Below are positions 3,631 through 63,250 of a stretch of DNA of 64,000 nt, in pieces (within the stretch, counting starts at the first letter, position 1; every line of letters begins with the position of its first letter). Location of the stretch: NCBI GenBank assembly GCA_032622095.1, contig CP136069.1:5814976-5878975 (forward strand). Direction: 5' to 3'. The notes beneath the pieces were generated by a model. The model was not told the origin of the DNA and did no database searches. It saw only the letters and a list, made by a program, of their open reading frames with translations. The position numbers were made by a program, and so were the translations under genes. This DNA comes from Siphonodentalium dalli. Its lineage: Eukaryota; Mollusca; Scaphopoda; Gadilida; Siphonodentaliidae.

Positions 3631-4260
3631 TGCAGAATGAGGTTCCCAGAGGGTGAATTTAGTTATGCTGACCCACATAGCAGGCTAGCATTACCAAATT
3701 CACCCTCTGGGGACCTCATTCTTCTTAATAGGCCTCATCTACTCTGGAAAGTTTCTTTATTATAAAATTTCTGTAGAAACTTCTTCACATAGATTCTATT
3801 TATTTTTTAGTTTAGTTTCTCTTTTCCCCCAAATTGGCAGACGACACATTGCATAATCAAGGTTCTCAATGGGTGTACATGTACATCACAAAATTCACTT
3901 TGGAAACTTCACATCTGAGTCTATGTCTCCCATAGCAGATAGGGCCATGCAGAATGAAATCCCCAGAGGGTGAATTTGGTGATGCTAGCCCACTATGCGG
4001 GATAGCATCACTAAATTCACCCTCTGGGGACCTCATTCTGCTTAAGCTATACATGAAGACGTCATGGTGTTGGAATTTTAAGTCCCATGGCTATACGTAA
4101 AGTACATCACAATATTCACCATTTGGGAACTTCAATCCAAGACTATGTCTCCCATAGCAGAATATATGAGGTCCCCAGAGGGTGAATTTGGTGATACTAG
4201 CCCATTATGTGGGATGGAATCACTAAATTCACCCTCTGGGGACCTCATTCTCAGGCTTGC
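3631..4260. mobile_element. Composite family A MITE ending 25 nt before exon 1
   Basis: Three family A palindromic modules (about 3631-3722, 3949-4044 and 4158-4252) are separated by inverted spacer sequence related to other long copies in the window. The right end is CAGGCTTG at 4253-4260. The SPEF2 acceptor follows at 4284-4285. No clean target duplication was found. Confidence 0.7.
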
Positions 4261-13300: not shown

Positions 13301-16300
13301 TTACTAAATTCACCCTCTGGGGACCTCATTCTGCAATTTCGCATATAAAAGAGAATATATTGGCTTAACAATCCCACATGGAGCCTCGCATATATTGGCT
13401 TATCAATATTTACCTTGACTGTGTCCCATAGGGAGCCTTGAATATATAAGAGAATTTATTGGCTTAACAATATTTATCTTGAACTTGTAAGCCAGTGCAT
13501 TCTCTTATATATGCGAGGCTCCCTATGGGAGAATTTCACATAAAAGAGAATGCACTGGATCTTTAATTCGGCCATTTTCAGATAAGTTTGTTACTTCCCG
13601 TTGATGATGGACATGCCACATTTATATACGACGGGAACGCAGCCAATTTGAATTTTCGGACAGGTTCTATGCCTCCCAATTTTGACGGACATACCACAAC
13701 TATGATTCTTCGGTCCAAGAGATCATTATTGATTGATATAACCTATACATAGTCAGGGGAATTTTGTGATATGCATATAATACTAAAATATCAGCCACAG
13801 AGATAAAAACTTAGCTGTTATGATAACGCAGGAATCTGTAAATTATAGTAATTCATGCGCCCGCCACGATCTCGGAGGAATCCGGTACCTCTCGCTGACA
13901 ACAATGGCACCTTCGATGATTATATAAACAAAATAACCTGGCCACGACTGTGTGTGGGATTTAAAGTTGCACATGTTGTGCTTTGTAAGTGGACTCCATG
14001 GTGGAAGCAATTCATGAGATTCAGGGTTCTCTACAATTTGCAAACTGTCTGTTCATCATTAGCAGAATATAAGCTTCCGTGAGCAAGGCACCTTACCTTG
14101 TTTGTGGGCCCAGGACACTGTGGCATCATTTCCGCATTAGAAACAAAACTTTCTCTTGCCCTTTTGCTCTACGCGAGGTTTCCGTCCTCGCTGAGCTCGC
14201 CTTAGGACACCTGCGTTATGTTTTAAACCGCAGTCTCCGGAGAACAGACATTCTACTGAAAGGATGCACTTCGTACTCGATAAGCTCTAATCGTACCATA
14301 TTCGAAGCAACTCAGTCATTTATACTTTCTGCAAATAGATTCAAATAAACTTATTATCCAACGTTAACTAACACTTCAAAGTTATCCTCTCGAACTGCTA
14401 ATTGAATGAATCGAATCATTGCATCATGCAACCTGAGAAAAATAGCTGTGTCTATATAGGCATAACGATCAAGTGACTCCTCTCGACTGGCAATTCGTTT
14501 GGCTAATCCATAAGTAATAGTAAAATGAATCAAACGTTAATTTAAAATTTATAAATTATACTGATATATACAGAGCAGTGATCTCATTTTTTTTAAATTT
14601 GTCATAATGTCTTGTTTCTTTTTTCATTCTCTAAATTCGACATTTACTTCATCCATGTCTTAGTTTCCCACTTCATATCTCTTGTCTCCTGCCTCTCGAT
14701 CTCTAATTCTATCATTTCAATACCAAATCCTCTTCTCTCGCAGACTTATCATACTTACATATATATATGGACATCATCTTGTAAATTGTTGTATAAATCT
14801 GGGATACAAAATAATGTTTACACCACACTGTGGCATCACCCATTGCTCATTCTAAATATGGGCACCATAAAACAAAAAAGCATGTCCCGTCATGAAAGGG
14901 TTAATTATCTCTGATTTAAACATTTTTTCCCAGTTGCCAGTTGATCGACCAGAATCACCGGAGAAACCTCCGAGCGAAGCTGCTCCAACCACGCCCACTC
15001 CAGAAGAACCACCCGGCACGGCTAAATCTGACCGGTCAAAGTCTCCCAAAGAACGAGCAAAGTCTCCCAAAGAAAGATCAAAATCACCAAAGGACCGCAA
15101 GTCTCCAAGGTCCAAATCCCGAACTCCATCTGCGAAAAAGCGAGACAAAAGCAAAGAAAAAGAGAAACCTGTGGAGGCAGCTGATACCTCAAGTTCTGAC
15201 GCTGATTTACATTTGAGAATAAGGTACACACTATTTCACAGCTCTATCATTTCTATTGTTAGAGTAATGCCCTAAGTAATCGACTCCGTAACCACAGCAG
15301 AATTATGGGTAACTTTTCAGGATTTAGTCGGAAATATGGCTTGTTGCCATTCATCGGAAAGCTCTCACCGAGAGCTCCAAGCCGTTTCGCCCTCCAGCGA
15401 TGGCGATGGGGGTTCAAATCCACATGTTTCCATCGTGAACTTTGTAACTGAAAATCATTATCTGGTGGAGTTGCCAGTTACTCGCTGATGGTTTGCCGCA
15501 CATGGTCGACGAGTTTATCAGCCATTGAAATCACTGTTTGGTTAGCCGTAAGTGTTCGGATTTTCCTCTAACCTCTAAAACTGGCAATGTCGTGATATGG
15601 CCTTAGTCGCTGAAAGCTACATATAAACCCCAATCAATCAATCAACCAAATTGAACCAATGCAAATTTTTAAACAATCTGTAACTGTTTGGGTATGGCCA
15701 AGTAGCCACTAATGGCCAACTCGGAGAGCTTTCCGATGAATGGCAACAAGCCATATTTCCGACTAAATCCTGAAAAGTTACCCATAATTCTGCTGTGGTT
15801 AAGGAGTCGATTACTTCGGGCATTACTGCAGGGTTGAAGTTCATTCATGCTTGCAATATTCAGATACTGATTTACATTTGAGAATAAGGTAGGGTTGAAG
15901 TTCATTCATGCTTGCAATATTCAGATACTGATTTACATTTGAGAATAAGATAGGGTTGAAGTTCATTCATGCTTGCAATATTCAGATGCTGATTTACATT
16001 TGAGAATAAGATAGGGTTGAAGTTCATTCATGCTTGCAATATTCAGATACTGATTTACATTTGAGAATAAGGTAGGGTTGAAGTTCATTCATGCTTGCAA
16101 TATTCAGATACTGATTTACATTTGAGAATAAGATAGGGTTGAAGTTCATTCATGCTTGCAATATTCAGATGCTGATTTACATTTGAGAATCAGCCCTGGG
16201 AATTAGCGTCGGCAATCGGCAGTGCCGAGGCAAAAGCCGACGTGAAATGAATTTGCGTCGGCATTTTTTTAGCCGAGGCAAATAAATGAAGACATGATCA

Positions 16301-19300
16301 ATTGGGAAGTGAAATGAGTGTTTGTTGTCAATTGTTGAAGCTTTAGTAATGTCCTGTTCCGTTTTACAATCGCGTTTTGTATTAATTCCATATTCGTGAT
16401 CGGCACATGTCCTCAAAATCATTTTACTTGCGACTTCCATTCATTGACACACTCAACTAATTGTGTCAATAAAAAATGACAACTGGTCCGTCTCCAAGTA
16501 ACCGGTTACGATTTTCGGAGCAAGCTACACCAACATGAAAGGAGGTCATTGTGTCACGTGCGTGCGCAGTGTTGAGTGTTTATTGAGATCGTTAAAACGA
16601 AAATATCCTAAATGGAGCCCCACAATGACATTGCCACAGTAAAACACTGTGTGTTCCGATATAAAGCACGTGGCGCGTCCCCCTAATAATGAGATAATCC
16701 TGATAAAAACGTGCGCAAACGTCATGGATACACGGTCGGAAACAGATGAGTCCACTTCAAAGGCATGCGGGGAGAGGAAACTCAGGAAATGTGTATTTAT
16801 GGTGCGTCCCCTGATAATGAGATAATCCTAACAATCACGTGCGCGAAAGTAATAATTACTCGGCTTGGCTTAGTGATCCTTAGTAGTCAGATGCGGCCAC
16901 TTTCAAATGCGGGGAGGTAAACACCTGGCTCGCCTTGCTATTTTCATTTTTGGGAATTCCTACTTTCACATTGTTGATGAATTTGACGGTTCACTTCTGG
17001 AACAAATTATTTCATAGAAAAATAAATGAACGCGCGTAAGTAGCGTACAGGGGGGATTTCCGCCTGAAATAATAAACGTGCGTGCAACTGGTGCATGCAG
17101 GCACGTTATTTGGCCGCTAACGTTATCTATTTGGCGTACAAACTTTGAGTACACAATTACAGGAAGTCGAGATAATCGTCTGCGAAATAAAAAAAAGTTT
17201 TGCATCGGACGCAATTTGAAATTGAATGAAATAAATTAAACTAGTCTTTAATATACACATTAGTAATTACAATGGTAAAAAAGAAAACTGTTGACGGATG
17301 GGAGCTCGGGTGTATACAATATGAATTAGAAGGAGATGGGGATACAGTTAAAAACGTATACTGTTCTCTATGTAGGGAGTTTGGCCAAAGTCAGATGAGG
17401 GGACCGTTCATGAAGATGAAAGGTGCAGTTGATAAAATAGTCGAAAAATGGATAGAGGGCACTACGAACATTAAAAAATCAAGTGCGGTGGATCATATTG
17501 CAAAATCCACCATGCACAGAATTGCGATGACTGCAAATAAAGAGCAAAATGATGGCAATGGCCCCGACAAACAAAATGAAAATAACACTGTGACGCCACA
17601 AATCACAATTCCACAGTTGGTAGCAAAAATAACTCTTGCCCAAAGACATCAACTAACCAAGAAATTTCAGCTAGTTCATTATCTGGCTGTGAAGTGTCGC
17701 CCTCTCCAAGATTACACAAGTTTTATGAAATTTGAGAAAGATGTCCACCATGTTGACATTGGCGGCGGATATGCAGATAGACGGGCCGCAAAGACAATGT
17801 TGAAATTCATTGCCGATCACATTAGGGAGGAAGGAATCACAAGACCCCTGAATGAAGGTTCAAGCCACTATTTCTCCCTGTTTTACGATGGATCGAGCTC
17901 TGCTAAAGCTAAAGATGAAAAAGAAGTATATGTAATAAAAACATGCCAGAATGGAGCTGCCAGGTTTCACATTGCTTCATTGGAGGAGCCAACTGACACA
18001 AATGCGCCTGGATTAAAACAATCATTGGACCAAAGTATGAGAAAGCTAAACTTCAATTTCGACAGAAAAACAAGGCAGGTTGGAAACGGCAGTGACGGAG
18101 CTGCAGTAAATATTGCTCTATTCAAACTGGAGAAAGAGGAACTTGGACCACACCTCATCAAAGGTTGGTGCGCCAATCATAAGGCAGAATTGGGTATACA
18201 CGACGCATTCAAAAATGCCTCACTCAATACGCAATGTGAAGAAATAATGGGAAATATGTTCCAATTCTTCAAGAAGGCAACTCTCAAATGGCGGCTTTTT
18301 AAACGGCAAGCAGAATTTCTGGAAATTAGACACTTGAAATATAAGAGAGTTTCTGGTACTCGTTGGGTTGCCCATCAAGTTGACTGTACTCTGAACTTTC
18401 TCCGGAACATGCCAATACTTCTGGGTTTTTTACATCAACAAATCTCCAAACCACACAACAAGACAATGAAGGATGCAGCTCCAACAATGCAGGGACACTT
18501 AAAATTGGCTTCAGACTTGAAGGTGCTGATTTATTTGGCTATCAGACATGACATCCTTGCTTACTTATCACCATTTAGCCAAATGTTGGAAAACAGGAAA
18601 CTTCTTGCACCAGAGGCAATCACAGCAATGAAAAATTCCATAAATGTAATAAAATCTCTTCATGACATATTGCTTGATAAAGGACATTCATCATTCTATG
18701 TGGAACATTTATTTCCAACAATTAGCAAGTTTATATTACCCTATCTTGAAGATGATGATGTGGGTATGGCTCAACGAGAAACGAGACAGGACACGGATAA
18801 TGCTAAAGGAAATTCTCTTGATGATACAGTTAGTGAATTAGAAGACAAGAAACAGATGTTTCATGGTTATGCGATGTCCAACAAACTCCAGTTATCTCTT
18901 GGTAAAGTTGCATCAGAGATAACAGGTGTATTGGGGAAGTTAACAGTGAATTTGAATGACAGATTTGCAGACTTTTTGGAAAACCCAATTATCCTTGCAG
19001 CGGCCAAAATCTTGAACACGAAGTTGTACAAATATAGCTCCAGAGATGATATCTTGCAAGATGTAAAAGTGATTGCTGGTCACTTTGAATATATCCTCAA
19101 AGCAAATGGATGTGATTTACCAAGGTTAAGTCAAGAATTCAGCTGTCTGTATTCGCACATAACTACTTTCTTGTCAGAAGCATCAAATGAACAGGCGTGG
19201 CAGCAAATGTTTTTACTTGCTGGCCCTGACTCACAAATGAATATTGACAACATCTTGCACATAGCAGAAATATGTATTGTGCTACCAATAAGTAGTGCTG

Positions 19301-22300
19301 ACATAGAAAGAGTGTTCTCATCATTTGCAAGAATTTTATCCAAGGATCGCTTATCACTGACCAATAGTTCATTGGAAACACTATTAATAGTCAGACACAA
19401 CAACTTTGATGGATTCATTGCATCTGAATATGATCCGATCATCGATAAATTTCTGAGTCAGCATCCTGATGGTTCCACTCGGAAACGCAAGGCCAGGGTT
19501 GAAGGCCACAAGAAACATACACGCATATCCAAGCATGCGAGAACGGGCTGTGCAAAACAAAATTGTTTGTTTCTGCACAAAGACTATGAGCAGCATCACG
19601 AAGCAGTGGTAGATGACGATCCAAATGTAAATTCAACTAAATGTGCAGAATCTGATGAAAATGACTCGGACTTTACAGTCAGCGACATTGATCTGAATGA
19701 AATCTCTTCCAGTGATTCTGATTCCGAAGATTCTGATAGTGATGTTAACTGAATAGTTATACTCTGACAGTGAACTGAATGGTGACTTAATTAAATAGAT
19801 TAAAATTATCACACAATTTGTATCGTTTTGTTTTTGTGTTTTTTGAACTGACTGATTATGTGCAATACACTGGCGTTGAAGGGGTAACTCTCAACATGAA
19901 CATTACAAAAAGTGCTGAAGGGTACACAGGTTTGAAAATGTGCTGAAGGGTACAATTATGTATTATGATCGGCACTAATCGTAATGCAGTTACTTTAACT
20001 GTTTTCCTGAAATGCAGTTTGTTTTCAGTTCAATGTTCTTTGGAACACCATGCTGTACAATTATTCTCTAACTAAAATCATGGCAGACACAAAAACTGTA
20101 CATCATTAAGACATTTTTTAGAATGATATTTCGAACCCTGTGTGCACTTCGGCACTTTTTTTGGTGAGAGTTACCCCTTCAGCAATAGTAGAAGTACCAG
20201 TTGTTGAGAAATTTTCATGTTAAAATATTTGAGTTTCAATGATTGAATGATTCTATTTTTTAACCCACATAAAATCATGCTGAGAAAGTTTAAAATCTTT
20301 AAAACACATACTCACTCAGTTCAAAACAAACAAATAATTGATAAAACAAATTCCCCTCGTGCATTCAAACCATGAATGGTCATGACTCATTCATAATAAA
20401 ATTCACTTCAGATCAGTGAGTGATAACCCTACATGCATATGCCCAGCCCATTGTAATAGATCTAATCATCATACCCCACCACTTGGGGCACATAAATTGA
20501 ATGAAGTGAATGATACTCAGAGAGAAAATGACTTTAATAATGAAGTCTTTTCTGAAATAAAGCTTTCACAACATGATATTTTAACTTGTGAACAATAATT
20601 CATCATAATATAATAACATGAACACCTTATTGAAAATTGCCTAGGCCAAAGTGAAAAATGCCTAGGCAAAATGATTTTGCCTAGGCAATTTTTTCGCCTA
20701 GGAAAATTTTCCTTAATTCCCAGGGTTGAGAATAAGATAGGGTTGAAGTTCATATTTGCATGCGATATTCAGATGCTGATTGGGGTTGTAGTTAATACAT
20801 GCGATATTCAGATGCTGATTGGGGTTGTAGTTAATACATGCGATATTCAGATGCTGATTGGGGTTGTAGTTAATACATGCGATATTCAGATGCTGATTGG
20901 GGTTGTAGTTAATACATGCGATATTCAGATGCTGATTGGGGTTGTAGTTAATACATGCGATATTCAGACGCTGATTTACATTTGAGAATAAGATAGGGTT
21001 GTAGTTCATATTTGCATGCGATATTCAGATGCTGATTAGGGATGTAGTTCATACATGCGATATTCAGATGCTGACTCTCATTATCCGTAGGGAGTCTCGC
21101 ATATATAAGAGAATACAGTGGCCTATCAATATCTACCTTGACCATGTAATATAAGCCAGTGCATTCCCTTGTATATGTGAGAAAGGACTGGCACATGATC
21201 TTTAATGCTGCACCAGCGCAGCTCCCGTCATGAAAGGGTTAATGCTGCACCAGCGCAGCTCCCGTCATGAAAGGGTTAATGCTGCACCAGCATAGCTCAC
21301 TTCATGAAAGGGTTAATGCTGCACCAGCATAGCTCACTTCATGAAAGGGTTAATGCTGCACCAGCATAGCTCACTTCATGAAAGGGTTAATGCGGCACCA
21401 GCATAGCTCACTTCATGAAAGGGTTAATGCTGCACCAGCATAGCTCACTTCATGAAAGGGTTAATGCTGCACCAGCATAGCTCACTTCATGAAAGGGTTA
21501 ATGCTGCACCAGCATAGCTCACTTCATGAAAGGGTTAATGCTGCACCAGCATAGCTCACTTCATGAAAGGGTTAATGCTGCACCAGCATAGCTACTTCAT
21601 GAAAGGGTTAATGCTGCACCAGCATAGCTCACTTCATGAAAGGGTTAATGCTGCACCAGCATAGCTCACTTCATGAAAGGGTTAAAAGTAGTAAATTAAA
21701 ACCTCAATCTGATTTTGATCGTCTGCACAAGCCTTGATATAGGGTGTCTGTCATTTGCAGAATGAGGTCCCCAGAGGGTGAATTTAGTGATGCTATCCCG
21801 CTACTAAATTCACCCTCTGGGGACCTCATTCTGCAAATGACAGACACCCTATTTCAAGGCTTGCGTCTGCTAATTCACCCACTTTTACAGGATTCCTTTG
21901 GTTCCTCGGAGGCCTCTGTCGCCCGACGCAGAAGGAAAACCAGCCGCGGCCGCGTCCAAAGATAAGAAGGATAAAAAGAAGAAGGATGATGGGATAGAGA
22001 GTCCGACCCCACCGACCGATCCCGATGAGAAACTAGTATTCGATGCATTTATGATCGGTCTCCATGCTGTTGCTGGCTTGGTGAGTACAGTAATGCCATA
22101 AGTAATTGACTCCTTAACCGCAGGAGAATTATGGGTAACTTTTCAGGATTTAGTCGAAAATATGGCTTGTTGCCATTCATCAGAAAGCTCTCCTCGATAT
22201 GTTATATGTTATTTTTGTTTTTTATGATCGGTCTCCATGCTGTCGCTGGCTTGGTGAGTACAGTAATGCCCTAAGTAATCGAACTCCTTAACCACACCAG

Positions 22301-25300
22301 AATTATTACTTATGGCATTACTGTATCTTGTTCCACACCATTAATGTGAGGCAACAAGTCTGAGTTTAGTGTGTCTGTCATTTGCAGAATGAGGTCCCCA
22401 GAGGGGGAATTAAGTGATGGTATCACACATAGCGGGCTAGCATCACCAAATTCACCCTCTGGGGACCTCATTCTGCATGGCCTCATCTGCTATGGGAGAC
22501 ATGGACTCAGATTGAAGTTCCCAAATGAGGTCCCCAGAGGGGGAATTTAGTGATGGTATCCCACATAGCGTGCCTAAACTAAAAATTAAATAGAATCTAT
22601 GTGAAGAAGTTTCTATAAAAAATTTATAATAAAGAAACTTTCCAGAGTAGATGAGGCCTAAGCAGAATGATGTCCCCAAATGGAGAATAATTTTGTTCAA
22701 AGTAGTAACTTTTACAATATTATATCCAAATTGACAACACACACCATCATTCTTATATAAGAATTAAGTGCAGTGATTCTTGATGGCGAAATCGTTATTT
22801 TATTGCCAATAGATGCGAATTGAGTGGTAAATATTTACAATTGGACATAGTTCTGACGATGTTTTCTATGGAGTGTTACGGTCGATTTGCTTCAAATTTT
22901 CGGCGATGTTAGTAGAATGTTACATTCCTCTAGTTGGCATAGCATCTGATTACTAACTTATCAGTTTCACGCACCCGAACAAGTATATAATATGTCTTTA
23001 ACCCTTTCAGTGCCAAGTTCGATTTTTGTATCAACCCATATTTCCTTGATCATTTTTCAAATTTAGTGATTATAATAATGTGATACATTGATGGAAAGAG
23101 CTCTTTCCATCAATGTATCACATTATTATAATCAATAAATTTGAAAAATGATCAAGGAAATATGGGTTGATACAAAAATCGGACTAGGCACTGAAAGGGT
23201 TATTCAATCATGTAGGTTGTGACAGAAATTGCAGCCAAGGAAGCAGAGGATGAAGCAGACAAGCAGAGAGAAATGGAAAAACAAAAAGAAAATGAGAAGG
23301 CGAATGCTGGAAAGAAGAAAGACAAAGACAAGGGAGGGAAGAAAGGAAAGAGCAGGAGTCCATCACCCAAGAAGAAGAAGGAAGCAGCAGAGGCTCCATC
23401 CGCTACACCACCATGTATGTATTAACAACCCCCCCCCCACATCCGCTACACCCCCATGTATGTATTAACCCCTCCCCCATCCGCTACACCACCATGTATG
23501 ATTGTATTAACCCGACTCTCAAATTCACTACACCCCATTAAGTCCCCCCACTCTGCTACACCCCCATATATATATATATATTACCTCCGTAATCCATTAC
23601 ACCCCCATGTATGTGTTAACTCCCCCCCCCCAATCTGCTGCACCCCATATGTATATATTACCCCCGTAATCCATTATGTATGTGATAACACCCCTCCCCA
23701 AATTTGCTACACACCATATATGTTTTAACCCCCCCTCTCAAATCCACTACACCCCATGTATGTATTAACCTCCCCCTCCAATCTGCTGCACCCTCATATA
23801 TGTAATAACCCTCCCCAATCTGATACACCCCCCATATATATATTACCCCCCCCCAATCCACTACACCCACATGTATGTATTAATCCCATTCCCAAATCTG
23901 CTACACCCCCATGTTTATGTTGGCTAGTATCACTAAATTCACTCTGGGGACCTCATTCTGCTTAGGCCTCATCTATAGTCTCAAATTAACATGGTTTTTT
24001 GTTACTTTTTCCCTTTTGTTCAGTTTCTATATCCCCTAATTTGCAGAAGATAAATTGCATAATCGAGGTGACTGATGGGTTAACATCACCAACTTCAACT
24101 GGGGAAATTCAATCTGATCCTAGGTCTTCCATAGCAGTTGAGGCCTAAGCAAAATGAGGTCCCCAGAGGGTGAATTTGGTGACGCTAACCTGATGTGAGG
24201 GATAGAATCACTAAATTCACCCTCTGGGAACCTCATTCTGCAGTAACTACATGATAATATTTTTTCAAAGAGGAAGATAGGTCATTCAATAAACCTCAAT
24301 ATTTCAGTGTCAGAGGCAGAGAGTGAAATAGAGAAACAGAAGAAAGAAATTAAAGATAGAATGAAAGAAGAATATGTGTTTGCATTGCAGGCAGAAGGTG
24401 GGTATATAGTCGAGAGAAACATGAATACGTGTTTGCATTGCAGGCAGAAGGTGGCTATATACAGTAATGCTCTAAATAATCGACTCCTTAACCACAGCAG
24501 AATTATGGGTAACTTTTCAGGATTTAGTCGGAAATATGGCTTGTTGCCATTCATCGGAAAGCTCTCACTGAGAGCTTTCCGATGAATGGCAACAAGCCAT
24601 ATTTCCGACTAAATCCTGAAAATTCTGCTGTGGTTAAGGGGTCCATTACTTAGGGCATTATTACCTCTGGTCTAGACCTCCATCTGTACATCGGTTCATG
24701 CACCCAAATGTCCATCTGTATGAATCTCACATTTTGCACTATTATTAGCTCAACTTTGCTTTGTTTGAGCTATTGCCATGGGTTGGCTGTTGATATTGAC
24801 ATGTAGATGGGAACAATTCATTATGGGGTCATTCGGCAAAATAAAACATGGCTGCCACAGCCCTCGAAATTCACACATTTTCTCCACGGCAGTGTATTGC
24901 CGTGGCAAAATTAGATCCCCACGGCAATTTTAATTCACATTCCCAATGTAGTTATTCTACATTATAATGATTCTACTATCATTTGAGTACATCGATTGTG
25001 TCTGACAGCTAGCGCTGGGACGGTTTTGGGGTTTTTCCTAACCGGTTAACCACGGGCATTAACCTAATCATAACCAGTTAACTGCGACCATCATTACCCT
25101 ACGTATGAGATTGAATACATGCACTGGTCACTGTTTATTACGCGTCCCGGAAACGTTGATAAACATACGATCACAAACGATGCCTTGGTCGTACCATGCG
25201 GTCCCGTTATGGCAATTAAATAGTGGTAAATGTGTATAAATTAATTAAGTTTTGAGCCCAAACAACTAAAATATAATATATATTAGTAGTGCGCTAGTAT

Positions 25301-28300: not shown

Positions 28301-31300
28301 GGATGGGATTAAAGAGGGTATTTGAAGGTATGGACATAATTATATAGAATATTAGATGTTAAATAAAACAGAAATATTCATTAATTATGGGACCACAAAA
28401 TGAGCATTTAATTTTGCCAATTTATTTTTTTAATTTGGCCAAAAAAATCTGAATTGGTAAAAACAATTTACCAAAATATTTCTCAGCACAGCGTGAACAG
28501 TTGTGACTCATTATTTAAGAACTGTCAACATGTTCGCTGCAAATGAAGCTAACATCCGGGACCGCCCCTGTGGTGTCTACGGTGATTTTAGTGGCCATAA
28601 CCTTGTGGGGAGTGGTCATATAAAGCCATCGATACACGCACAGTGGTCACAGCTGAACAGAAGTGGCGATATTAACCCATAGCAATGATCTTTTCTCATT
28701 TGTTACAGATTCAACATGCCGTAAGCGACTTGAGCTCATCAAACACACAGCGTTTTGCATTATGCAGGACTTAAAGAAAAAAGGCGACAATGCATTTAAT
28801 GATATGAACGACTGGCTCGGGGCTAGATTCCTCAAAGAAATTGAGAGGTATATACATAAGGGCATAGTGGCTGACACTATCTAGACAGCTTTACAGCATA
28901 TATATTTAGACTAGAATCTTAGAATATCATATTTCGCAAGAAAAAAAACAAAAATAACATATAACATATACGGTAATGCCCAAAGTAATTGACCACTTAA
29001 CCACAGCAGAATTATGGGTAATTTTTCAGGATTTAGTCGGAAATATAGCTTGTTGCCATTCATCGGAAAGCTCTTGGCGAGAGCTTTCCGATGAATGGCA
29101 ACAAGCCATTCTGCTGTGGTTAAGTGGTCAATTACTTTGGGCATTAACGTAAGCCGATCTTCTGTTCTCATTCTATAAATTTGCCAATTTTAAAAACTTT
29201 AAAAAAATTATATTCTGTATTAAAGATATTAATGGGTATTGGTGTTAAAATAGTCACAAATGGTAAAACAGCCATAAACAGAAAGAATATTAAAATATGG
29301 GCAGATTTTGTTCTTATACCAATCATAAATATTGCGTAAATAGTATTTTATTGTCAAGTTCGTACACTATGTTATGTAAAGAAAAGCAAAAATTGAACTT
29401 CTTGCTTCTATTGTACAGTAATGCTTTAAATAATCAACTCCTTAACCACAGTAGAATTATAGGTAATTTTTCAGGATTTAGTCGGAAATATGCCTTGTTG
29501 CCATTCACCGGAAAGCTCTCAGTGCATTTATCTGGGTTTGAATAAAATTGATATGATCTTACTTGCAGGATGAGTTAGTGCTGAGTTCACCAGCATCTCT
29601 CAGTGAGAAAATTACCCATAATTCTTCTGTGGTTAAGGAGTTGATTATTCAGGGCATTACTATATGGCTCTCTCCTATTAGGAGATAAACATACCCTGTT
29701 GAGTTGTACATTCTGGGATTCGGGCATGAAAACAGTTTGTGAACGAGTGTACGTTTATCTTCATTGTAATTCAATCTAGCAAGGAATTTGCAAAAAAACT
29801 GTATAAAAAGTATCATTTAGTCGTTTTCATGACACGAATCGAGACTTTCATTTTGCTGTTGTCACCGTGCACAAGTCGTTGGGTTTGTTCATTGCGTTAC
29901 TCGGAACACTGTTCCGTAACCATTTCCTGTGGGGCGGGTTGGCTCTTTTCGCTACTCCGTTCTGCGCCGATGAAATTGTACCGTGCCACATTCAGATTTG
30001 ATGCACGCTGAAGCGGCCGATGAACGGTATCTATAGACAACAACGCGCGGGTGTGCTCGTTTCGCTACTCGTTCTGTGCCAATGAAATTTGACCGTGCTA
30101 CATTCAGATTTGATGCACGCTGAAGCGGCCGATGTCGGTGAATCGAAAACTAATGTTATCCGCGCTCGGCCAATCAGAATGCTTGTTTTTAGTGACAAAT
30201 ACTCAATTGAATTACAATTGTTTTTCTCTGAAACGCTGCACAATTTGAAGTAATTTTCCATCAAAATATGTTCTGTTATTTTCTGGTAAAATTAACCTAT
30301 TGCTAGATTCTGTTTGTATGAAATACTTTTGAACTTCTTGCTCAAGCCTTGAAATAGTGTGTCTGTCATTTGCAGAATGAGGTCCCCAGAGGGTGAATTT
30401 AGTGATGCTACCCCGCATAGCGGGCTAGCATCACCAAACTCACCATCTGGAAACCTCATTCTGCCGAGATGTAAGCAGAATGAGGTCCCCAGAGGGTGAA
30501 TTTGGTGATGCTAGCCCACTATGCGGGGTAGCATCACTAAATTCACCCTCTGGGAACCTCATTCTGCAAATGACAGACACTATTTCAAGGCTTGTTCTTG
30601 CTTGTATTTTCAGCATTGACCAGATGGCCGAACTCATAAGACATGCAATTGAAGCTCGAGAGAAACTGAGGCAAACCGTCCTTCTCAAACAAGAAGAATT
30701 CTTTATCGATGAGGTATGAATACTTATTATATTAACCTAGAGTTCATATATTCGAATCGTAAGTAGGAGAGAAACTGAGGCAAACTGTCCTTCTCAAACA
30801 AGAAGAATTCTTTATCGATGAGGTATGAATGCTGTGATGTGAAACACTCTGGTTGATCAAATAGAAATGTAGAATAATCTTGCTCAATGTTGTTATTTCT
30901 ACAAATATTAATCCAAGTTGACAACACACACTTCCATTCTTTTATATTAATTAAATGCAATGACTCTCAATTGTCGTACTCATTTGTGTGAGTATATTGC
31001 CGATAGTTGTTCTAGAATCATGATGTAAATATTTACAAATGAGCGTAGTTTTCAGCGATAATATAGCTCCTGTGTACTAACTTATCAGTTTCGAGAACTC
31101 GAGCAAGTCCATAATATGTCTTTAACATGGAGTTCATTCATTGGAATTGTAACACATTTGGAATTACAGGAGCCGGTTCCAATGATATCCATATTTGTAT
31201 GGTTCTATTGAGACAGACCGAAGATATTTTAGGCTGTTGAAGATTTATTTGGCCGGTTTGTTGGGTAAAGGGTTAAAACCACCATAAACAGAATAATAAG

Positions 31301-46300: not shown

Positions 46301-49300
46301 GCCCTAATTAATCGACTCCATAACCACAGCAGAATTATGGGTAACTTTTCAGGATTTAGTCGGAAATATGGCTTGTTGCCATTCATCGACTAAATCCTGA
46401 AAAGTTACCCATAATTCTGCTGTGGTTAAGGAGTCGCCTATTTATAGCATTACTGTAAGTAAGTAACACTGCAAGATAGAGTTTCCCCCTTGCTATACTA
46501 ATGCGATCGAAGGTACTCAAACCGGAGCGCAATACAGTTTGACAAGCAGTGTATTTTGACCATGTTTATGATGGTTATTTGAAGTTTTATTGTCTATCAT
46601 CCATTGCGGTACATATTCAGTCTCTAATTAGTCAGCGGAATAAGTGAATCAAGACTTTCTATGATAGTTTGAAGATCACTTTATCTTTTCGTTTCGACTG
46701 TATTTATATTCCGTATTCTGTGTGTTGTTAAAAATGATAGTGCCAATGTTAAAATCATATCAATATATATATCATTCTTTGTAATCCCTATATGATGTCC
46801 AGGTAGTACAATGTCATAATTTGTGATTTTTATATCAGATTAAATCAGTTTATATCCATTACAAAGTTCCCTACATTTTTCTGGACCTGGGAAGGTATAA
46901 TAAGCAAGGCTTGAAATAGGGTGTCTGTCATTTGCAGAATGAGGTTCCCAGAGGGTGAATTTAGTGATGCTACCCCGCATGGTGGGCTAGCATCACCAAA
47001 TTCACCCTCTGGGAACATCATTCTGCTGAGGTGTAAGCAGAATGAGGTCCCCAGAGGGTGAATTTGGTGATGCTAGCCTGCTATGCGGGGTAGCATCACT
47101 AAATTCACCCTCTGGGGACCTCAATCTGCAAATGACAGGCACACAATTTCAAGGCTTGTACCCATGTATACTATGCCAGTCTATAGGCAGAAAAAACCTC
47201 TCTCTCTCATTGATTGATTTTCAAAAGAAATTGCCTGAGAATCAAATATCTTTTTTTGTTTGGCCTTACCCTGGAGCAATGTAATAGGGTGAGTTCATCA
47301 TTATTATAAAGTGGATTCGTTACCCGGGAGCACTATGATAGGGTGAAGTTCATTAATAAATAGTATCATTCCAAAAATTATATCTCTCATTTTTGAAAAT
47401 GATATGATAGTTCATCAAATAAAAATAATATGTTTGAAAATGATATGATAGTGTGAGTTCATCATTAACTCTTTACCCAACAGAAGGGCCCTGTGCCAAT
47501 GCATTCTCTTATATATGCGAGTCGACCATAGGTCGCCTCGCATATATAAGAGAATGCATTGGCTTAACACATTAAAAATGATAAAATTGTTAAAGAATGT
47601 AAGAAAAAATGGTAAAAAGTGTTAAATAAAGATTTTTTTTAGGCCAATGCATTCTCTTATATATGCGAGGCGACCTATGGTCGACTCGCATATATAAGAG
47701 AATGCATTGGCACAGGGCTAACCGTAACTATCACAATGTGGTCAAGGAGCCGGTTCCAATGATATCCATATTTGTATGGTTCTATTGAGACAGACCGAAG
47801 ATATTTTAGGCTGTTGAAGCTTTATTTGGCCGGTTTTGGCCGTTTTGTTGGGTAAAGGGTTAATAATACAATTTTCCTTTCCACCAGATGGCGCTGTGGT
47901 TCGACAGTAATGGAGAAGTTATTGCCGATGAATCGGGAAAGGATATATTCAACAGAATCGGAAATCTCAAGAAAATTCTGTTCGACATTTTTGCTGACCT
48001 AAACAAAAATCCTCCTGTTCTTCATTACACGAGTATGGTAAGTAAATAGATAAAGAAAATAAACTGTGTATCAACAGAATTCAGATGCTAATCTCAAATC
48101 CTTGAAAGTTTGGGAATTTCAGAATAATGGAAAATAGCACCTTCTGCCTGCTTCTTCACCTCACTATTGAACATTTTTTTTAACTCTATAACACTTAACT
48201 CTTTCATGACTGGAGTTTCCTGTAATATTGCGAAAACCCTGTGCCAATGCATTCTCTTATATATACGAGTCTCCCATAGGGAGCCTGAGCCTCGCATATA
48301 TAAGAGAATGCATTGGCCTAACAATATTTATCTTGTAAGCCATCACATTCTCTTATATATGCGAGGCTATGGGAGACTTACATACTTAAGAGAATGCATT
48401 GGCACAGGGTCTTTAATGCTGTTCCAGCGCAGCTCCCTTCCTGAATTTTTGCAAAAACCCTGATGCCAATGCATTCTCTTATATATGCGAGTCGTCCATA
48501 GGTCGCCTCGCATATATATAAGGGAATGCATTGGCAAAACAATTTTTATATTATTTTATATAATTGTTAAAGAATGTAAAAAAGAATGTAAGAAAAAATT
48601 ATAAAAATTGATAAAGAATGTAAGAAAAAATTATAAAAATGATAAAATTGTTATTAAAAGAAAATAAAAAATGATAAAAATTGTTGAAGAGTGTAAGAAA
48701 TAATGAAAAAAAATGATAAAAATTGTTAAAGAATGTAAGAAAAATTTATAAAAAATGATAAAAAATTGTTAGGCCAATGCATTCTCTTATATATGCAAGG
48801 CGACCTATGGTGGACTCGCATATATAAGAGAATGCTTGGCACAAGGTCTTTAATGTTGTGCCAGCGCAGACCCCATCATGAAAGGGATAAATTATGAACC
48901 ACTACTCAGAAGTCATCACAGGGTTGAGAAATGTCAACTATAATATGTTATGTATCCAGTGTCTTTATAGTTCACATGTTTTTGAGTTCCTGAAATCACC
49001 ATGATGGGAGCTGCGCTGGCGCAGCATGAAAAATCCTGTGCCAGCGCATTCTCATAAATACGAAAAATTTATAGGTTGTTTCTTTATTTATTTAACTTTT
49101 TGTTGTATTTGTATATCGTGTAATAATCTTTGGCCACCGTCAAGTCTGGATATAGTGAACCACTAACTTCACCCTATGGGAACCTTATTCTGCTTAAGCC
49201 TCAACTGTTATTATGGGAGACCTAGGATCAGATTAAAGTTTCCCAGTTGATGAGATTAAAGTTCCCCAGTTGAAGATGGTGATGTTCACCCATTAGTTGC

Positions 49301-52300
49301 CTCGATTATGCAATTTATCTTCTTAAAATTAGGGGATATAGAAGAGAAAAAGTAACTAAAAACAATGTTAATTTGAGAATTTAGACACTTTTCAGAAGAT
49401 GAGGCCTAAGCAGAATGAGGTCCCCAGAGTGTTAATATTTGGTGATGATAGCCTGCTGTGCAGGGTAGCATCACTAAATTAACCCTCTGGGGACCTCATT
49501 CTGCAAATGTCGGACACTATCATTTGATGTCTCACCTGTTTTCTTTTTGACACTTTATGCTGTTGATTACAGTTGCTGTATTTTGCTGCGGCGCCCAATG
49601 GTAACGAGGGAATACTGCGAGCGTTGAGTGTGACATCGGAGACTCACATGCCGAGGTTACAGAAGGCATGTACAACACCGTCAGATAGAGGCAGTATCAT
49701 GGGAGAGTAAGTCAATTACAAGCTTGAGTTTAGCGTGCCTGTCATTTGCAGAATGAGGGCCCCAGAGGGTGAATTTAGTGACGCTATCCCACATAGCAGG
49801 CTAGCATCACTAAATTCACCATCTGGGCCTCAGTCTGCTTAGGCCTCATCTTCTCTGGAAAGTTTCTATATTATCAAATTTCTATAGAAACTTCTTCACA
49901 TAGATTCTATTTCTTTTTTAGAAATAAAAACACAGTGTATAATCGAGGTTCCCAATGGGTGTACATCACAATATTCACCATTTGGGAACATCAATCTGAG
50001 TCTATGTTGCCCATAGCAGATGAGGCCATGCAGAATGAGGTCCCCAGAAGGTGAATGTAGTGATGCTAGCCCGCTATGGTGGAATTTTGATGGGCATATT
50101 TTGCCACGCCCTTGGGGGGGGGGGGGGGGGGGTTTCAATCAACTGATTTGTCAAAGCCAAATTAGGAAGCATTAAGATATTTGAATTATCTCACTTAGTT
50201 GTGTACTGTGCTTACCTGTTGTATCATTTCTGAGTATGATATAACCATTTTTAGTGACTTGAGAACACTGTATGCATCACCAGGTTGGACGATGCGCTGG
50301 TGATGTTTCTGCGCACGCATGTTACTACGGATCATGATTATATCGCTCGTGGTTCTTGACTATTTATTTTTCATTTAAAATCTAGTGTTTAAATCACGTT
50401 TGGAATGAGAATGCCACTTTTAAACACACTATTTTGTTTAACATAATTTTCTATCCGTTTGTTTCTTTTATGTTTTGGACAGAAATCATTATTTTGTTAA
50501 AGTCCCACTTAATTTTTGAGTCACAGTTTATTTTTTTTTATAGTGACTTGATATATGGTTTTAATAACAATCTATGCCATAAAATATGATTAAAATACTA
50601 TCATTCATTACCATTTGTTTTATGGTTTATGGCAATTATGCCAAAGGGATGTCAGGAATGATAACTTATTGGCAAGGTCCGCAAGCACACTACGATGACC
50701 TTTAACTATATTTATCGGGAACTACAGGTATATATACTCATCCAATGCATGCTACGATGACCTTTATCTATATTTGTGTAACTATGGGTGTGTAACTTCT
50801 CTGTATACTCAATATATACATGTATATGCCTTATACTATTATCGCATAATTAAAACTTCACATAACCGATGAATAATCAACCGTTCTACTATCCTAACTG
50901 TTTTTGTTGACTTTTAGATAGCCGTGGGTTCACGCCTTCCGGTTACCAGTCGATGCATCACGCGGGTTTTGATCTGCCTGCTCGGTGTGTCGGTGTGGTG
51001 CTTGCGGACCTTGCCAATAAGTTATCATTCCTGACATCCCCTTTGGCATAATTGCCATAAACCATAAAACAAATACTATAATTCATTACCATTTGGAACG
51101 TCTGTCTCAGAAGGGGCCCTTTAGGTTACACTGGTGTAAATGTTTTCCCTTTAGGTTACACTGGTGTAAATGTTTTCCCTTTAGGTTACACTGGTGTAAA
51201 TGTTTTCCCTTTAGGTTACACTGGTGTAAATGTTTTCCCTGTAGGTTACACTGGTGTAAATGTTTTCCCTTTAGGTTACACTGGTGTAAATGTTTTCCCT
51301 TTAGGTTACACTGGTGTATCCCTTTAGGTTACACTGGTGTAAATGTTTTCCCTTTAGGTTACACTGGTGTAAATGTTTTCCCTTTAGGTTACACTGGTGT
51401 AAATGTTTTCCCTTTAGGTTACACTGGTGTAAATGTTTTCCCTGTAGGTTACACTGGTGTAAATGTTTTCCCTTTAGGTTACACTGGTGTAAATGTTTTC
51501 CCTTTAGGTTACACTGGTGTATCCCTTTAGGTTACACTGGTGTAAATGTTTTCCCTTTAGGTTACACTGGTGTAAATGTTTTCCCTTTAGGTTACACTGG
51601 TGTATCCCTTTAGGTTACACTGGTGTAAATGTTTTCCCTGTAGGTTACACTGGTGTAAATGTTTTCCCTTTAGGTTACACTGGTGTAAATGTTTTCCCTT
51701 TAGGTTACACTGGTGTATCCCTTTAGGTTACACTGGTGTAAATGTTTTCCCTTTAGGTTACACTGGTGTAAATGTTTTCCCTTTAGGTTACACTGGTGTA
51801 AATGTTTTCCCTTTAGGTTACACTGGTGTAAATGTTTTCCCTGTAGGTTACACTGGTGTAAATGTTTTCCCTTTAGGTTACACTGGTGTAAATGTTTTCC
51901 CTTTAGGTTACACTGGTGTATCCCTTTAGGTTACACTGGTGTAAATGTTTTCCCTTTAGGTTACACTGGTGTAAATGTTTTCCCTTTAGGTTACACTGGT
52001 GTATCCCTTTAGGTTACACTGGTGTAAATGTTTTCCCTGTAGGTTACACTGGTGTAAATGTTTTCCCTTTAGGTTACACTGGTGTAAATGTTTTCCCTTT
52101 AGGTTACACTGGTGTATCCCTTTAGGTTACACTGGTGTAAATGTTTTCCCTTTAGGTTACACTGGTGTAAATGTTTTCCCTTTAGGTTACACTGGTGTAA
52201 ATGTTTTCCCTTTAGGTTACACTGGTGTAAATGTTTTCCCTGTAGGTTACACTGGTGTAAATGTTTTCCCTTTAGGTTACACTGGTGTAAATGTTTTCCC

Positions 52301-55300
52301 TTTAGGTTACACTGGTGTATCCCTTTAGGTTACACTGGTGTAAATGTTTTCCCTTTAGGTTACACTGGTGTAAATGTTTTCCCTTTAGGTTACACTGGTG
52401 TAAATGTTTTCCCTTTAGGTTACATTGGTGTAAATGTTTTCCCTTTAGGTTACACTGGTGTAAATGTTTTCCCTTTAGGTTACACTGGTGTAAATGTTTT
52501 CCCTTTAGGTTACGCTGGTGTAAATGTTTTCCCTTTAGGTTACGCTGGTGTAAATGTTTTCCCTTTAGGTTACGCTGGTGTAAATGTTTTCCCTTTAGGT
52601 TACGCTGGTGTAAATGTTTTCCCTTTAGGTTACGTGGTGTAAATGTTTTCCCTTTAGGTTACGCTGGTGTAAATGTTTTCCCTTTAGGTTACGCTGGTGT
52701 AAATGTTTTCCCTGTAGGTTACGCTGGTGTAAATGTTTTCCCTGTAGGTTACACTGGTGTAAATGTTTTCCCTGTAGGTTACACTGGTGTAAATGTTTTC
52801 CCTTTAGGTTACACTGGTGTAAATGTTTTCCCTGTAGGTTACACTGGTGTAAATGTTTTCCCTTTAGGTTACACTGGTGTAAATGTTTTCCCTTTAGGTT
52901 ACACTGGTGTAAATGTTTTCCCTTTAGGTTACACTGGTGTAAATGTTTTCCCTTTAGGTTACACTGGTGTAAATGTTTTCCATAGGCATCAGTGCTAACG
53001 TTTTAGCGTATACTGTTGGCAATATAAATTTTGGGTCCCAAATTTTCTTTAAATCTAAAAATTGACATTTGGGGAAACTTTTTACACAAAAAAATAATAT
53101 CAGGAAATTCGCCTTCAAATCTTGTGTTTTCGTAACTAGTGTCAGAACCGCATAAAAAAATACTGTCATATTTTAGACCACGCCAAAAAATTCAAACTTC
53201 ACTAAAAAGGGTTAAATCCTGTGCCAATGGCTATTTTACCTACATGTATGGGAAATCATAGGGAGAGGTGTGATGGGATATCATAGGGAGAGGTGTGATG
53301 ATTTTACCTATGGAGAAATCATAGGAAAGAGGTGTGATGATTTTTATGCAAAAAGCACACAAGGCTATTGACCAATCAGGGCCCATTGTATATTTTATTC
53401 TCTCCTATATATTCCTCCCGCATCTGCTAGATGTCACTCCGAACCATATTTACACCAGTGTAACCCATAGAGTAATAGAAAATAGCTCAAATCATAAAAT
53501 CATTTCCCCCGTTATGGCTCCCAGAATGCAACAGAATTCAAACTTTTGTTTATTTTCAATGGAAGGGGAGTAACACTATATCGAAATGTATATAGTTATT
53601 CCCCTTCCATTGAAAATAATACGCATTGTGTTATAACTTGAGCACAGAACAGACATCAGTGTCTCAACAAAAACAACAATTGTTCACAGTTTATTACATC
53701 AAATAAGTTGAAAATACAATGTTTTGGAGCTTCATCTTTCAAATCATATATAATATGGTATATATTTTATATAATGTGAACTGGGGGGTTCGAAAATTTA
53801 AAAAGTGGGCCTTAACCCTTTGAGTGCCAGGTCCGATTTTTGTATCAACCCATATACCCTGTGCCAATGCATTCTCTTATATATGCGAGTCGACCATAGG
53901 TCGCCTCGCATATATAAGAGAATGCATTGGCTTAACAATTTTTTTTTTTTTTTACAATTTTTTACAATTTTAATATATTTTATTATATTCTTTAACAGAC
54001 TTATTGTGTAGGTTTAGGGCCGATAATATCGCTCCCTGGCACTCAAAGGGTTAAATTTTAATAAAAACACATTTTGTTTTGCTATTTATAGGTCTAGTTT
54101 ATTAGTCATAATTGTTTTTTATTAAACTTTTCCAACAAAGAAAAAACCAATGATAAATTAGATATTGGTCTGGAACCAAAAATCAGATTCACTCTTCAAA
54201 CTATGTTGGATAAGCCTTTCTATACTAAATACTCATTGATGAGTAGTTACCTTATTAACCCTTTCTATACTAGTGCATCATTGAGGAGTAGTTATCCCAT
54301 AGGAAATGTTCAGATAATAAGTTTAAACCTTTCTATACTAAAGAATCATTGATGAGTAGTTTAATATCCCATTGGAAATGTTCAGATAATAAGTTTAACC
54401 CTTTCTATACTAATGCATCATTGATGAGTAGTTATCCCATAGGAAATGTTCAGATAATACGTTTAAACCTTACTATACTAATGCATCATTGATGAGCAAT
54501 TATCCCATAGGAAATGTTCAGATAATAAGTTTAAACCTTTCTATACTAAAGAATCATTGATGAGTAGTTATCCCATTGAAATGTTCAGATAATAAGTTTA
54601 ACCCTTTCTATACTAATGCATCATTGATGAGTAGTTATCCCATAGGAAATGTTCAGATAATATGTTTAAACCTTACTATACTAATGCATCATTGATGAGC
54701 AATTATCCCATAGGAAATGTTCAGATAATAAGTTTAACCCTTCCTATACTAAAGAATCATTGATGAGTAGTTATCCCATTGGAAATGTTCAGATAATAAG
54801 TTTAACCCTTTCAATACTAAAGCATCACTGATGAGTAGTTATCCCATAGGAAATGTTCAAATAATAAGTTTAACCCTTTCAATACTAAAGCATCACTGAT
54901 GAGTAGTTATCCCATAGGAAATGTTCAAATAATAAGTTTAACCCTTTCTATACTAAAGCATCACTGATGAGTAGTTATCCCATAGGAAATGTTGCGATAA
55001 TAAGTTTAACCCTTTCAATACTAAAGCATCATTGATGAGTAGTTATCCCATAGTAAATGTTCAGATAATAAGTTTAACCCTTTCAATACTAAAGCATCAT
55101 TGATGAGTAGTTATCCCATAGTAAATGTTCAGATAATAAGTTTAACCCTTTCAATACTAAAGCATCACTGATGAGTAGTTATCCCATAGTAAATGTTCAG
55201 ATAATAAGTTTAACCCTTTCAATACTAAAGCATCATTGATGAGTAGTTATCCCATAGTAAATGTTCAGATAATAAGTTTAACCCTTTCAATACTAAAGCA

Positions 55301-58300
55301 TCACTGATGAGTAGTTATCCCATAGGAAATGTTCAGATAATAAGTTTAACCCTTCCTATACTAAAGCATTATTGGTGAGTAGTTATCCCATAGGAAATGT
55401 TCAGATAATAAGTTTAACCCTTTCAATACTAAAGCATCACTGATGAGTAGTTATCCCATAGGAAATGTTCAAATAATAAGTTTAACCCTTTCTATACTAA
55501 AGCATCACTGATGAGTAGTTATCCCATAGGAAATGTTCAAATAATAAGTTTAACCCTTTCAATACTAAAGCATCACTGATGAGTAGTTATCCCATAGGAA
55601 ATGTTCAGATAATAAGTTTAACCCTTTCAATAACTAAAGCATCACTGATGAGTAGTTATCCCATAGGAAATGTTCAGATAATAAGTTTAACCCTTTCAAT
55701 ACTAAACTTTTCTAAAGCATCATTGATGAGCAATTATCCCATAGGAAATGTTCAGATAATAAGTTTAACCCATTCTATACTAAATACTCATTAGTGAGTA
55801 GTTATCCCTAACTTTACTAAATTAACGAGTAGTTCCAATAGGAAATGTTCAGATAATAAGTTTAACCCTAACTTTACTAAATTAACGAGTAGTTCCTATA
55901 GGAAATGTTCAGACAATAAGTTTAACCCATTCTATACTAAATACTCATTAGTGAGTAGTTATCCCTAACTTTACTAAATTAATGAGTAGTTCCAATAGGA
56001 AATGTTCATACAATAAGTTTAACAAACAACCATAGACCGTTTGTTGAACTTATTATCTGAACATTTCCATCCCATAAATACGACTCCTTCTGCACTTTTA
56101 TTATATGTTGTCTGCTTTTTTGCCTGAAAACCCCTCCAGATGAATAATAGACCATTCCATCTTATTTTGTTACGACAGAATGGGAGGATCGATTTAGTGT
56201 AGAAAACCCTGTTAACCCTTTCAGTACCAAGTCCGATTACCCTGCATGGAGCCTCACACATATATAGAAGCATATAGAAGAGTGTCATCTGCTCATGTTT
56301 GTCTGGGGCTCTGTATGGGTGAAATTATAAAATTGTTAAAGAATACAATAACAAATTATTAAAATTGTAAAAAAAAATTAGGCCAATGCATTCTCTTATA
56401 TATGCGAGGCGACCTATGGTCGACTCGCATATATAAGAGAATGCATTGGCACAGGGCTCTAAGAGCTCTTTCCATCAATGTATCACATTATTATAATCAA
56501 TAAATTTGAAAAATGATCAAGGAAATATGGGTTGATACAAAAATCGGTCTCACTGAAAGGGTTAAATGACCTGAGAACTATATATTTCTGGATGGCTCCA
56601 TGAGTTTCTGGATGGCTCCATGAGTTTCTGGATGGCTCCATGAGTTTCTGGATGGCTCCATGAGTTTCTGGATGGCTCCATGAGTTTCTGGATGGCTCCT
56701 TGAGTTTCTGGGTGGCTCCATGAGTTTATGGATGGCTCCATGAGTTTATGGATGGCTCCATGAGTTTCTGGATGGCTCCATGAGTTTCTGGATGGCTCCA
56801 TGAGTTTCTGGATGTCTCCATGAGTTTCTGGATGGTTTTCTGGATGGCTCCTTGAGTTTCTGGATGGCTTCATGAATAATATGCTTTTTTCTTTAGGGCA
56901 GAGATTTTGGATGAAGCTGTGAAGACGCCAGAGCCAGCTTATCTACCAGAGGATATCTCGCAGGAAGCCAACAACGCTCATGTACCAATAGAGGCGCTAT
57001 ATAAGGTGTGTAATATACGCTCTATATCAGGTGTGTAATATACGCTCTATATCAGGTGTGTAATATACACTCTATATAAGGTGTGTAATATCCACAATGC
57101 TATGTACCAATAGAGGCGCTATATAAGGTGTGTAATATACACTCTATATAAGGTGTGTAATATACACTATATAAGGTGTGTAATATACGCTCTATATAAG
57201 GTGTGTACTATACACAATGCTCATGTACCAATAGAGGCGCTATATCAGGTGTGTAATATACTCTCTATATCAGGTGTGTAATATACACTCTATATCAGGT
57301 GTGTAATATACGCTCTATATCAGGTGTGTAATATACACTCTATATAAGGTGTGTACTATACACAATGCTCATGTACCAATAGAGGCGCTATATAAGGTGT
57401 GTAATATACTCTATATCAGGTGTGTACTATACACAATGCTCATGTACCAATAGAGGCGCTATATCAGGTGTGTAATATACTCTCTATATAAGGTGTGTAC
57501 TATACACAATGCTCATGTACCAATAGAGGCGCTATATCAGGTGTGTAATATACTCTCTATATAAGGTGTGTACTATACACAATGCTCATGTACCAATAGA
57601 GGCTCTCTATAAGGTGTGTACTATCCGCTCGATATAAGGTGTGTACTATACGCTCGCTAAGGTATGTACTATCCACAATGCTCATGTTCCAATAGAGGCT
57701 CTCTATAAGGTGTGTACTATCCGCTCTCTAGTAGGTGTGTACTATCCGCTCTCTATAAGATGTGTACTATGCGCTCTATGTAAGGTGTGTACTATACACT
57801 CTCTGTAAGGTTTGCCCACACGGCATGCTAGCATCACTAAATTCACCCTCTGGGGACCTCATTCTGCTTTCTACATTCAAGCCTGCAAATAGTCTGTATG
57901 TCATTTGCAGAATGAGCTCTCCAGAAGGAAAATTTAGTGGTGCTACCCCGCACAGCATGCTAGCATCACTAAATTCACCCTCTAAGGACCTCATTCTGCT
58001 CAGGCCTCATCTTCTAGGAAATATATATAGTCTCAAATTAACATTGTTTCGAGTTACTTTTTCCTTTCTGTTCAGTTTCTATATCCCCTAATTTGCAGAA
58101 GATAAAATGCATATTCGAGGTGACTAAATGAGTGAACATCACCAACTTCAACTGGGGAACTTTAATCTGATCCTAGATCTCCCATAGCAGTTGAGGCCTG
58201 AGCAGAATGAGATTCCCAGAGCTCGAGGGTGCATTTGGTGACACTAGCCCACTGTGCACTAAATGCACCCTTTGGGGACCTCATTATGCAAAAGTCAGAC

Positions 58301-63250: not shown

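Follow-up and report, generated by a model that had tools for sequence, protein, structure and literature searches.

The edges of several SPEF2 exons recur in the neighbouring introns of the window (the whole stretch of 64,000 nucleotides that was analysed), and these repeats are real but were over-read when an earlier note saw in them the possible mark of a process acting at splice junctions. We consider it probable that they arose by ordinary local duplication, i.e. by repair-mediated copying and minisatellite growth that were subsequently filtered by selection. On this reading the process belongs to a type already known, for which the available part of Pace et al. (2009, PMC2671141) offers a comparison, and a splice-junction-specific process is not needed.

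The + strand of the window encodes the 3′ portion of an animal SPEF2 gene. The solved SPEF2 structure 9ijj matches it with an E value of 1.7e-91, and 9ijj together with six SPEF2-like proteins, one of them from the nemertean Tubulanus polymorphus, served to place the exons. Both the identity of the gene and the exon number given in the earlier note held: 18 exons with AG/GT borders join into a single frame of 830 residues with zero internal stops, whose identity to three SPEF2-like relatives is 58, 52 and 49% in the alignment. The introns range from 893 to 8910 bp.

Each exon plus 40 bp of flank was searched against the window on both strands, as was all sequence in the form of 150-bp tiles. 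Local copies were found for 8 of the 35 exon edges, comprising seven of the 17 donors and one of the 18 acceptors (Table 1); this is the count that replaces the "about ten of 18 exons" of the earlier note. The tail and donor of exons 4, 5, 6, 7, 9, 12 and 15 recur downstream in the following intron, all of them as originally described. The two copies of an acceptor plus exon head, likewise as described, concern exon 10 alone and lie upstream of it, within introns 9 and 8, respectively. Exon-derived copies are direct in every case; the inverted matches with E < 0.05 (exon 4 to 16-56 and exon 13 to 37920-37955) are weak and far away. Template and copy are 77 to 4814 bp apart, with the exception of one exon 4 copy at 5769 bp, and the copies diverge from the exons by ∼3-15%, the exon 6 array excepted. 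They include 3, 11, 11 and 21 bp of intron sequence for exons 4, 7, 9 and 12, respectively, and longer intron parts for exons 5, 6 and 15.

Table 1. Exon-edge copies in the SPEF2 window and the elements associated with them.
Feature	Positions	Strand	Remarks
Exon 4 tail and donor, recurring stretch	15194-15226	+	Exon 4 is 14934-15223
MITE A with extra interior sequence	15261-15829	.	Starts 37 bp past the exon 4 donor; right end abuts the array
61-bp minisatellite with six exon 4 tail copies	15830-16190	+	TRF period 61; GT kept in 2/6
Related 39-bp array with one more exon 4 tail copy (20963-20995)	20726-21082	+	
Exon 5 tail and donor region with second tail and donor copy (22221-22263)	22048-22324	+	
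∼40-bp minisatellite beginning in exon 6 (end 23414) and carrying the exon 6 donor	23394-23898	+	
Exon 7 tail and donor (24363-24408) with second copy (24416-24461)	24363-24461	+	91%
Exon 9 tail and donor (30658-30724) with copy (30767-30833)	30658-30833	+	97%
Exon 10 acceptor and head copy (29547-29599) between MITE A arms, intron 8	29415-29663	+	
Exon 10 acceptor and head copy (34238-34282) behind a MITE A left arm	34106-34282	+	Exon 10 is 34380-34487
Exon 11 internal 27-bp copy (43350-43376) of 43427-43453	43350-43453	+	
Exon 12 tail and donor, source	45562-45615	+	Exon 12 ends at 45594
Exon 12 tail and donor, two copies (47266-47308, 47310-47363)	47266-47363	+	
Minisatellite from inside exon 15 (end 57005), exon tail and GT-bearing units	56971-57804	+	

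The individual cases differ in extent. The exon 4 segment exists in seven copies of 30-33 bp, of which the seventh, in the 39-bp array, adds to those noticed previously. Because P0001 and P0002 have a three-residue gap in the alignment exactly at the end of exon 4, the tail of this exon may itself derive from the repeat, and the direction of copying is ambiguous here. The exon 5 copy reaches 94.5% over 73 bp (22221-22293), 33 bp of which are exon, and the exon 6 array overlaps its exon by just 17-21 bp. The exon 7 pair came from the tile search and was not listed by the per-exon search. Exon 12 has a short third copy (47443-47467, E 0.002). For exon 11, the 27-bp copy is real, yet it is not the head with a splice site that had been assumed, since its source starts 29 bp inside the exon (start 43398). 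The internal copy of exon 17, already regarded as weak, is not convincing (E 0.012, 27 bp at 85%, within chance for a scan with 18 queries).

Other minisatellites stay outside exons: the one at 45054-45399 ends 12 bp short of the exon 12 acceptor and the one at 56585-56875 ends 21 bp short of the exon 15 acceptor, and two long ones, 51117-52981 (30-bp unit, ∼64 copies) and 54255-55942 (60-68-bp units), together fill roughly half of intron 14. The literature searched, in which subscription papers were thinly covered, yielded no account of an exon tail plus donor that had expanded into a minisatellite.

The strong favouring of exon edges on which the earlier note built its case did not withstand a per-base comparison with the background. 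Local direct-repeat families were present at 8 of the 35 edges (23%) and at 29% of random unmasked noncoding 42-mers (p 0.84), a comparison for which the edge counts were entered by hand from the exon and tile searches and in which the two criteria are close, not identical. The 29% consist of 25% arrays and 4% short families of two or three copies. Array-type families were depleted at edges (3/35 against 25%, p 0.013), whereas short ones exceeded their background (5/35 against 4%, nominal p 0.012, post hoc and in one gene). Coverage gave no excess either: tiles with a local direct match made up 35% of exon tiles and 44% of intron tiles, or 32% and 31% without distant hits. The self-alignment and placement test that had been proposed returned no overall edge excess per base and an excess for short families only. 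In the self-alignment with repeats left unmasked, miniature inverted-repeat elements (MITEs) and arrays swamp the signal.

Counting by event, we used three nulls, namely circular shift, random unmasked placement and random placement that also excluded arrays. An exon label was assigned to ten direct families, or to nine once the array 45054-45399 is removed. Nine of 29 families touch exons, compared with 4.4, 5.6 and 2.6 expected under the three nulls (p 0.026, 0.047 and 0.001). Among the short families, six of 17 do so, against 1.3, 1.5 and 2.0 (p 0.001, 0.004 and 0.010). At edges, we counted seven of 29 families against 3.8, 5.2 and 1.9 (p 0.04, 0.20 and 0/1000), a count that misses the masked exon 5 donor and exon 10 acceptor (our own number of edge families is eight) and takes in the array 45054-45399, whose overlap with exon 12 is only 8 bp. 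Large families stood at four of 12 against 3.0, 4.2 and 0.6 (p 0.31, 0.72 and 0.002) and short families at three of 17 (p 0.048, 0.065 and 0.123). All these p values are nominal, since the gene was chosen for its pattern.

MITEs crowd the same places. The donors of exons 5, 3, 4, 7 and 8 are followed by MITE A after 6, 14, 37, 63 and 122 bp, respectively, and the acceptor of exon 10 is preceded by it at a distance of 97 bp. MITE B, a second foldback family with an AATGAGG core, is found no more than 65 bp from the acceptors of exons 1, 5, 7, 9 and 14 (its right ends at 4251, 21863, 24242, 30594 and 49532 are 19-65 bp before them) and 12 bp past the exon 14 donor. Altogether, 12 of 40 intronic MITE copies are no more than 100 bp from an edge, against 4.2 under uniform placement (p 0.0005) and 6.2 under a growing-intron null (p 0.0075), which inserts elements at random and asks whether the longer exposure of old sequence yields clustering at edges; it accounts for part, not all, of the excess. 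Element boundaries and MITE families were set by hand for these distances and for the MITE A comparison below. A count in repeat-removed coordinates gave a very small p, which we do not rely on because introns almost without unique sequence inflate it. Family D had no excess within 100 bp of edges (2/18), nor had arrays that touch no exon (2/12, p 0.17 and 0.27). Since MITEs that copy no exon also crowd the edges, closeness to exons is not peculiar to the exon copies. Besides, MITE A seems to favour donors (five of six within 130 bp; contrast with MITE B p 0.08 by hand), and one copy in intron 12 (46293-46456) sits in a donor-like site, with CAG-GTA before and TAAGTAAGT after it. Intron 4 also holds an unbroken frame of 835 codons (17245-19749) that matches the Pfam hAT dimerisation domain PF05699 (E 1.1e-5) and is probably an autonomous hAT transposon.

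Some of the exon copies are tied to MITE A. This element has ∼12 copies in the window, with a standard copy of 213 bp; its ends start with CAGT and several copies have TA on both sides. Intact copies possess terminal inverted repeats and TA flanks, several others have altered ends, and an intact copy folds as one long hairpin (z -24.8). By its ends we take this TA-flanked MITE to be Tc1/mariner-like. Four of the nine exon-derived families (exons 4, 5, 7 and 10) lie in or against MITE A (0-1 bp), and none of the 20 intron-only families does (Fisher p 0.005 by hand), the closest of these being 43 bp away. This comparison used 11 of the 12 MITE A copies, kept the array 20726-21082 separate from the exon 4 family, and pooled the intron part of the exon 10 copy (family 29525-34261) with exon 10. 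The families of exons 6, 9, 11, 12 and 15 are at least 450 bp from any listed MITE A copy.

The contacts are of two kinds: the exon 5 and 10 copies interrupt MITE A beside its palindrome centre, and those of exons 4 and 7 only abut it (the second exon 7 copy against the element at 24461-24664). At the exon 5 locus, the left arm extends as far as position 109 of 213 and is followed by 23 unrelated bases (22198-22220), which would fit filler, and then by the exon tail and donor; past the copy, the left arm restarts (positions 4-44), and of the right arm its final 20 bases follow. The element at 34106 has the left arm to position 104 of 213, a short intron stretch and then the exon 10 acceptor and head, and at 29415 a copy of this same stretch lies between both MITE A arms. 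The structures at exon 5 and 34106 would fit a break at the hairpin centre that was filled from neighbouring DNA, a mechanism we infer from their arrangement, and the copy at 29415 might be a second event or the transposition of a loaded element.

Under the local-duplication reading, breaks would occur at hairpin-forming MITEs, where either the centre of the palindrome or an end cut by transposase would be affected, and elsewhere in the introns. Repair would fill them with a few tens of bases copied from the closest DNA, and some of the copies would later slip into arrays. Exon edges would serve as templates since the MITEs of SPEF2 sit near exons, and selection would keep the harmless results, that is donor-side, direct copies. 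Four observations count against this reading: five of the nine exon-derived families are far from MITE A, short families exceed all three nulls at exons (p 0.001-0.010), the growing-intron null leaves part of the MITE excess at edges standing, and the exon-derived copies are all direct, where plain break repair should yield inverted copies too, barring selection. Of the causes proposed in the earlier note, a local replication or repair process stands to the extent that a repair-type process could make such copies, and not as an action on splice-junction DNA as such.

Selection could indeed have shaped which copies survived. Donors were copied more often than acceptors (7/17 against 1/18, Fisher p 0.018). 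A downstream copy of a donor would leave the first donor in place and the mRNA normal, while an upstream copy of an acceptor would put the wrong acceptor first; splicing to the exon 10 copy at 34238 would lead to a stop after six codons. As regards orientation, the 16 local inverted families all stay clear of exons, and an inverted copy next to an exon could base-pair with that exon once transcribed. The contrast in orientation has p 0.008 with all 16 inverted families and ∼0.06 (one-sided, by hand) without palindromes, as eight of the 16 are self- or near-self-palindromes. The tolerance for duplications suggested in the earlier note may therefore have a part in the survival of copies, though hardly through the spare splice site it was meant to preserve. 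That copies are retained as such spares is scarcely credible to us: the donor GT is intact in the copies of exons 5, 7 and 9 and in three of exon 12, and units with a GT occur frequently in the exon 15 array, yet the GT is kept in just two of the seven exon 4 copies and missing from five. Use of the distal donors of exons 4, 5, 6, 9, 12 and 15 would run into a stop within 17 residues (for exon 6 the donor position is about five bases off, and only the stop was used, not the frame), and that of exon 7 would add a 53-bp extension and shift the frame. Given these stops and the frame shift, the distal donors are not in-frame spares, and we rejected this explanation on the frames and the lost GT.

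Two further explanations seem unlikely to us, and equally so. If exon-intron junctions were fragile, transcription- or splicing-linked breakage, e.g. from R-loops at donors, would raise duplication there, in line with the excess of short families at exons (6/17) and edges (5/35 against 4%) and with the preponderance of donors over acceptors. However, there is no overall excess per base (p 0.84), arrays are rarer at edges than in the background, the copied stretches continue past the junction, four of the nine exon-derived families adjoin or lie within MITE A, and one short family, that of exon 11, is exon-internal. Alternatively, duplication might be random with MITE A irrelevant, the pattern reflecting a gene chosen in hindsight and the slower fading of the exon member of each pair. 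The lack of excess by coverage, the all-family edge test, which is weak (p 0.04 and 0.20) with two of the three nulls, and the fact that a single gene was selected for its pattern would all agree with this. On the other hand, when decay of the exon side was simulated in 200 trials each, the pairs of exons 5, 7 and 9 stayed detectable in all, that of exon 12 in 94% and that of exon 11 in 77% (the exon 10 value of 0.00 was disregarded, its copy lying partly in masked sequence). Because decayed pairs stay detectable, the excess of short pairs does not come from slower decay of exons alone, and the tie to MITE A (4/9 against 0/20) also speaks against pure chance. An assembly artefact appears highly improbable: long arrays are difficult to assemble, but the ∼3-15% divergence from the exons outside the exon 6 array argues against simple assembly duplication, and some copies are inside a MITE with both arms. 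RNA-mediated copying was rejected on account of the extension of copies past the junction, and whole-exon duplication on account of the copied pieces being parts of exons.

Beyond local duplication as we favour it, a bolder interpretation, which we put forward tentatively and hold to be rather unlikely, is that the first 100 bp of introns in this lineage form a hot zone for insertion of palindromic MITEs and for break repair, where exon edges would be recopied and selection would leave donor-side direct copies. If true, this would be the opposite of the TE-poor zone beside mammalian exons. Should the clustering at edges extend genome-wide, exon flanks may gather rather than repel mobile DNA, and palindromic MITEs may seed splice-site-bearing duplications that provide raw material for new donors and minisatellites. 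At present, the case stands as a worked example of known processes in a single gene, and what deserves further attention is that hairpin MITEs and short duplications gather next to exons.

Several known systems invite comparison. Like introners, as depicted in the available part of one account (PMC9860276), the elements here are MITE-like and near splice sites; unlike them, none makes up an intron or ends at splice sites, the listed elements measuring at most ∼650 bp with their nearest end at least 6 bp from an exon. Introners were rejected since no element spans an intron. MITE A resembles TA-flanked MITEs in being short, with terminal inverted repeats from CAGT and TA on both sides, and differs from them in that it is nearly all one palindrome. 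Mammalian TEs are under-represented near exons in human and mouse, according to the portion available of the respective study (PMC3088655); by the same measure, the distance of intronic TEs to exons, the 100 bp nearest an exon hold more of MITEs A and B here than expected. With the short tandem duplications or "doublets" of Messer and Arndt and of Thomas et al., as cited in the accessible part of PMC2671141, the copies share that they are short, local and direct, whereas several of ours bear a splice site. The closest parallel is provided by the 824 human duplications of Pace et al. (2009), copied from within 5 kb into transposable elements, which, as the available sections describe them, come mostly from less than 5 kb away and in a few cases from exon or intron pieces (PMC2671141). 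Common to both are short nearby pieces in interrupted transposable elements, exon and intron templates included; in SPEF2, unlike there, some copies abut the element and do not interrupt it, the exon-derived copies are all direct and three have grown into minisatellites. By analogy with what that partial view of the human set conveys, the exon 5 and 10 copies would work like these repair-mediated duplications and are candidate members of the same class.
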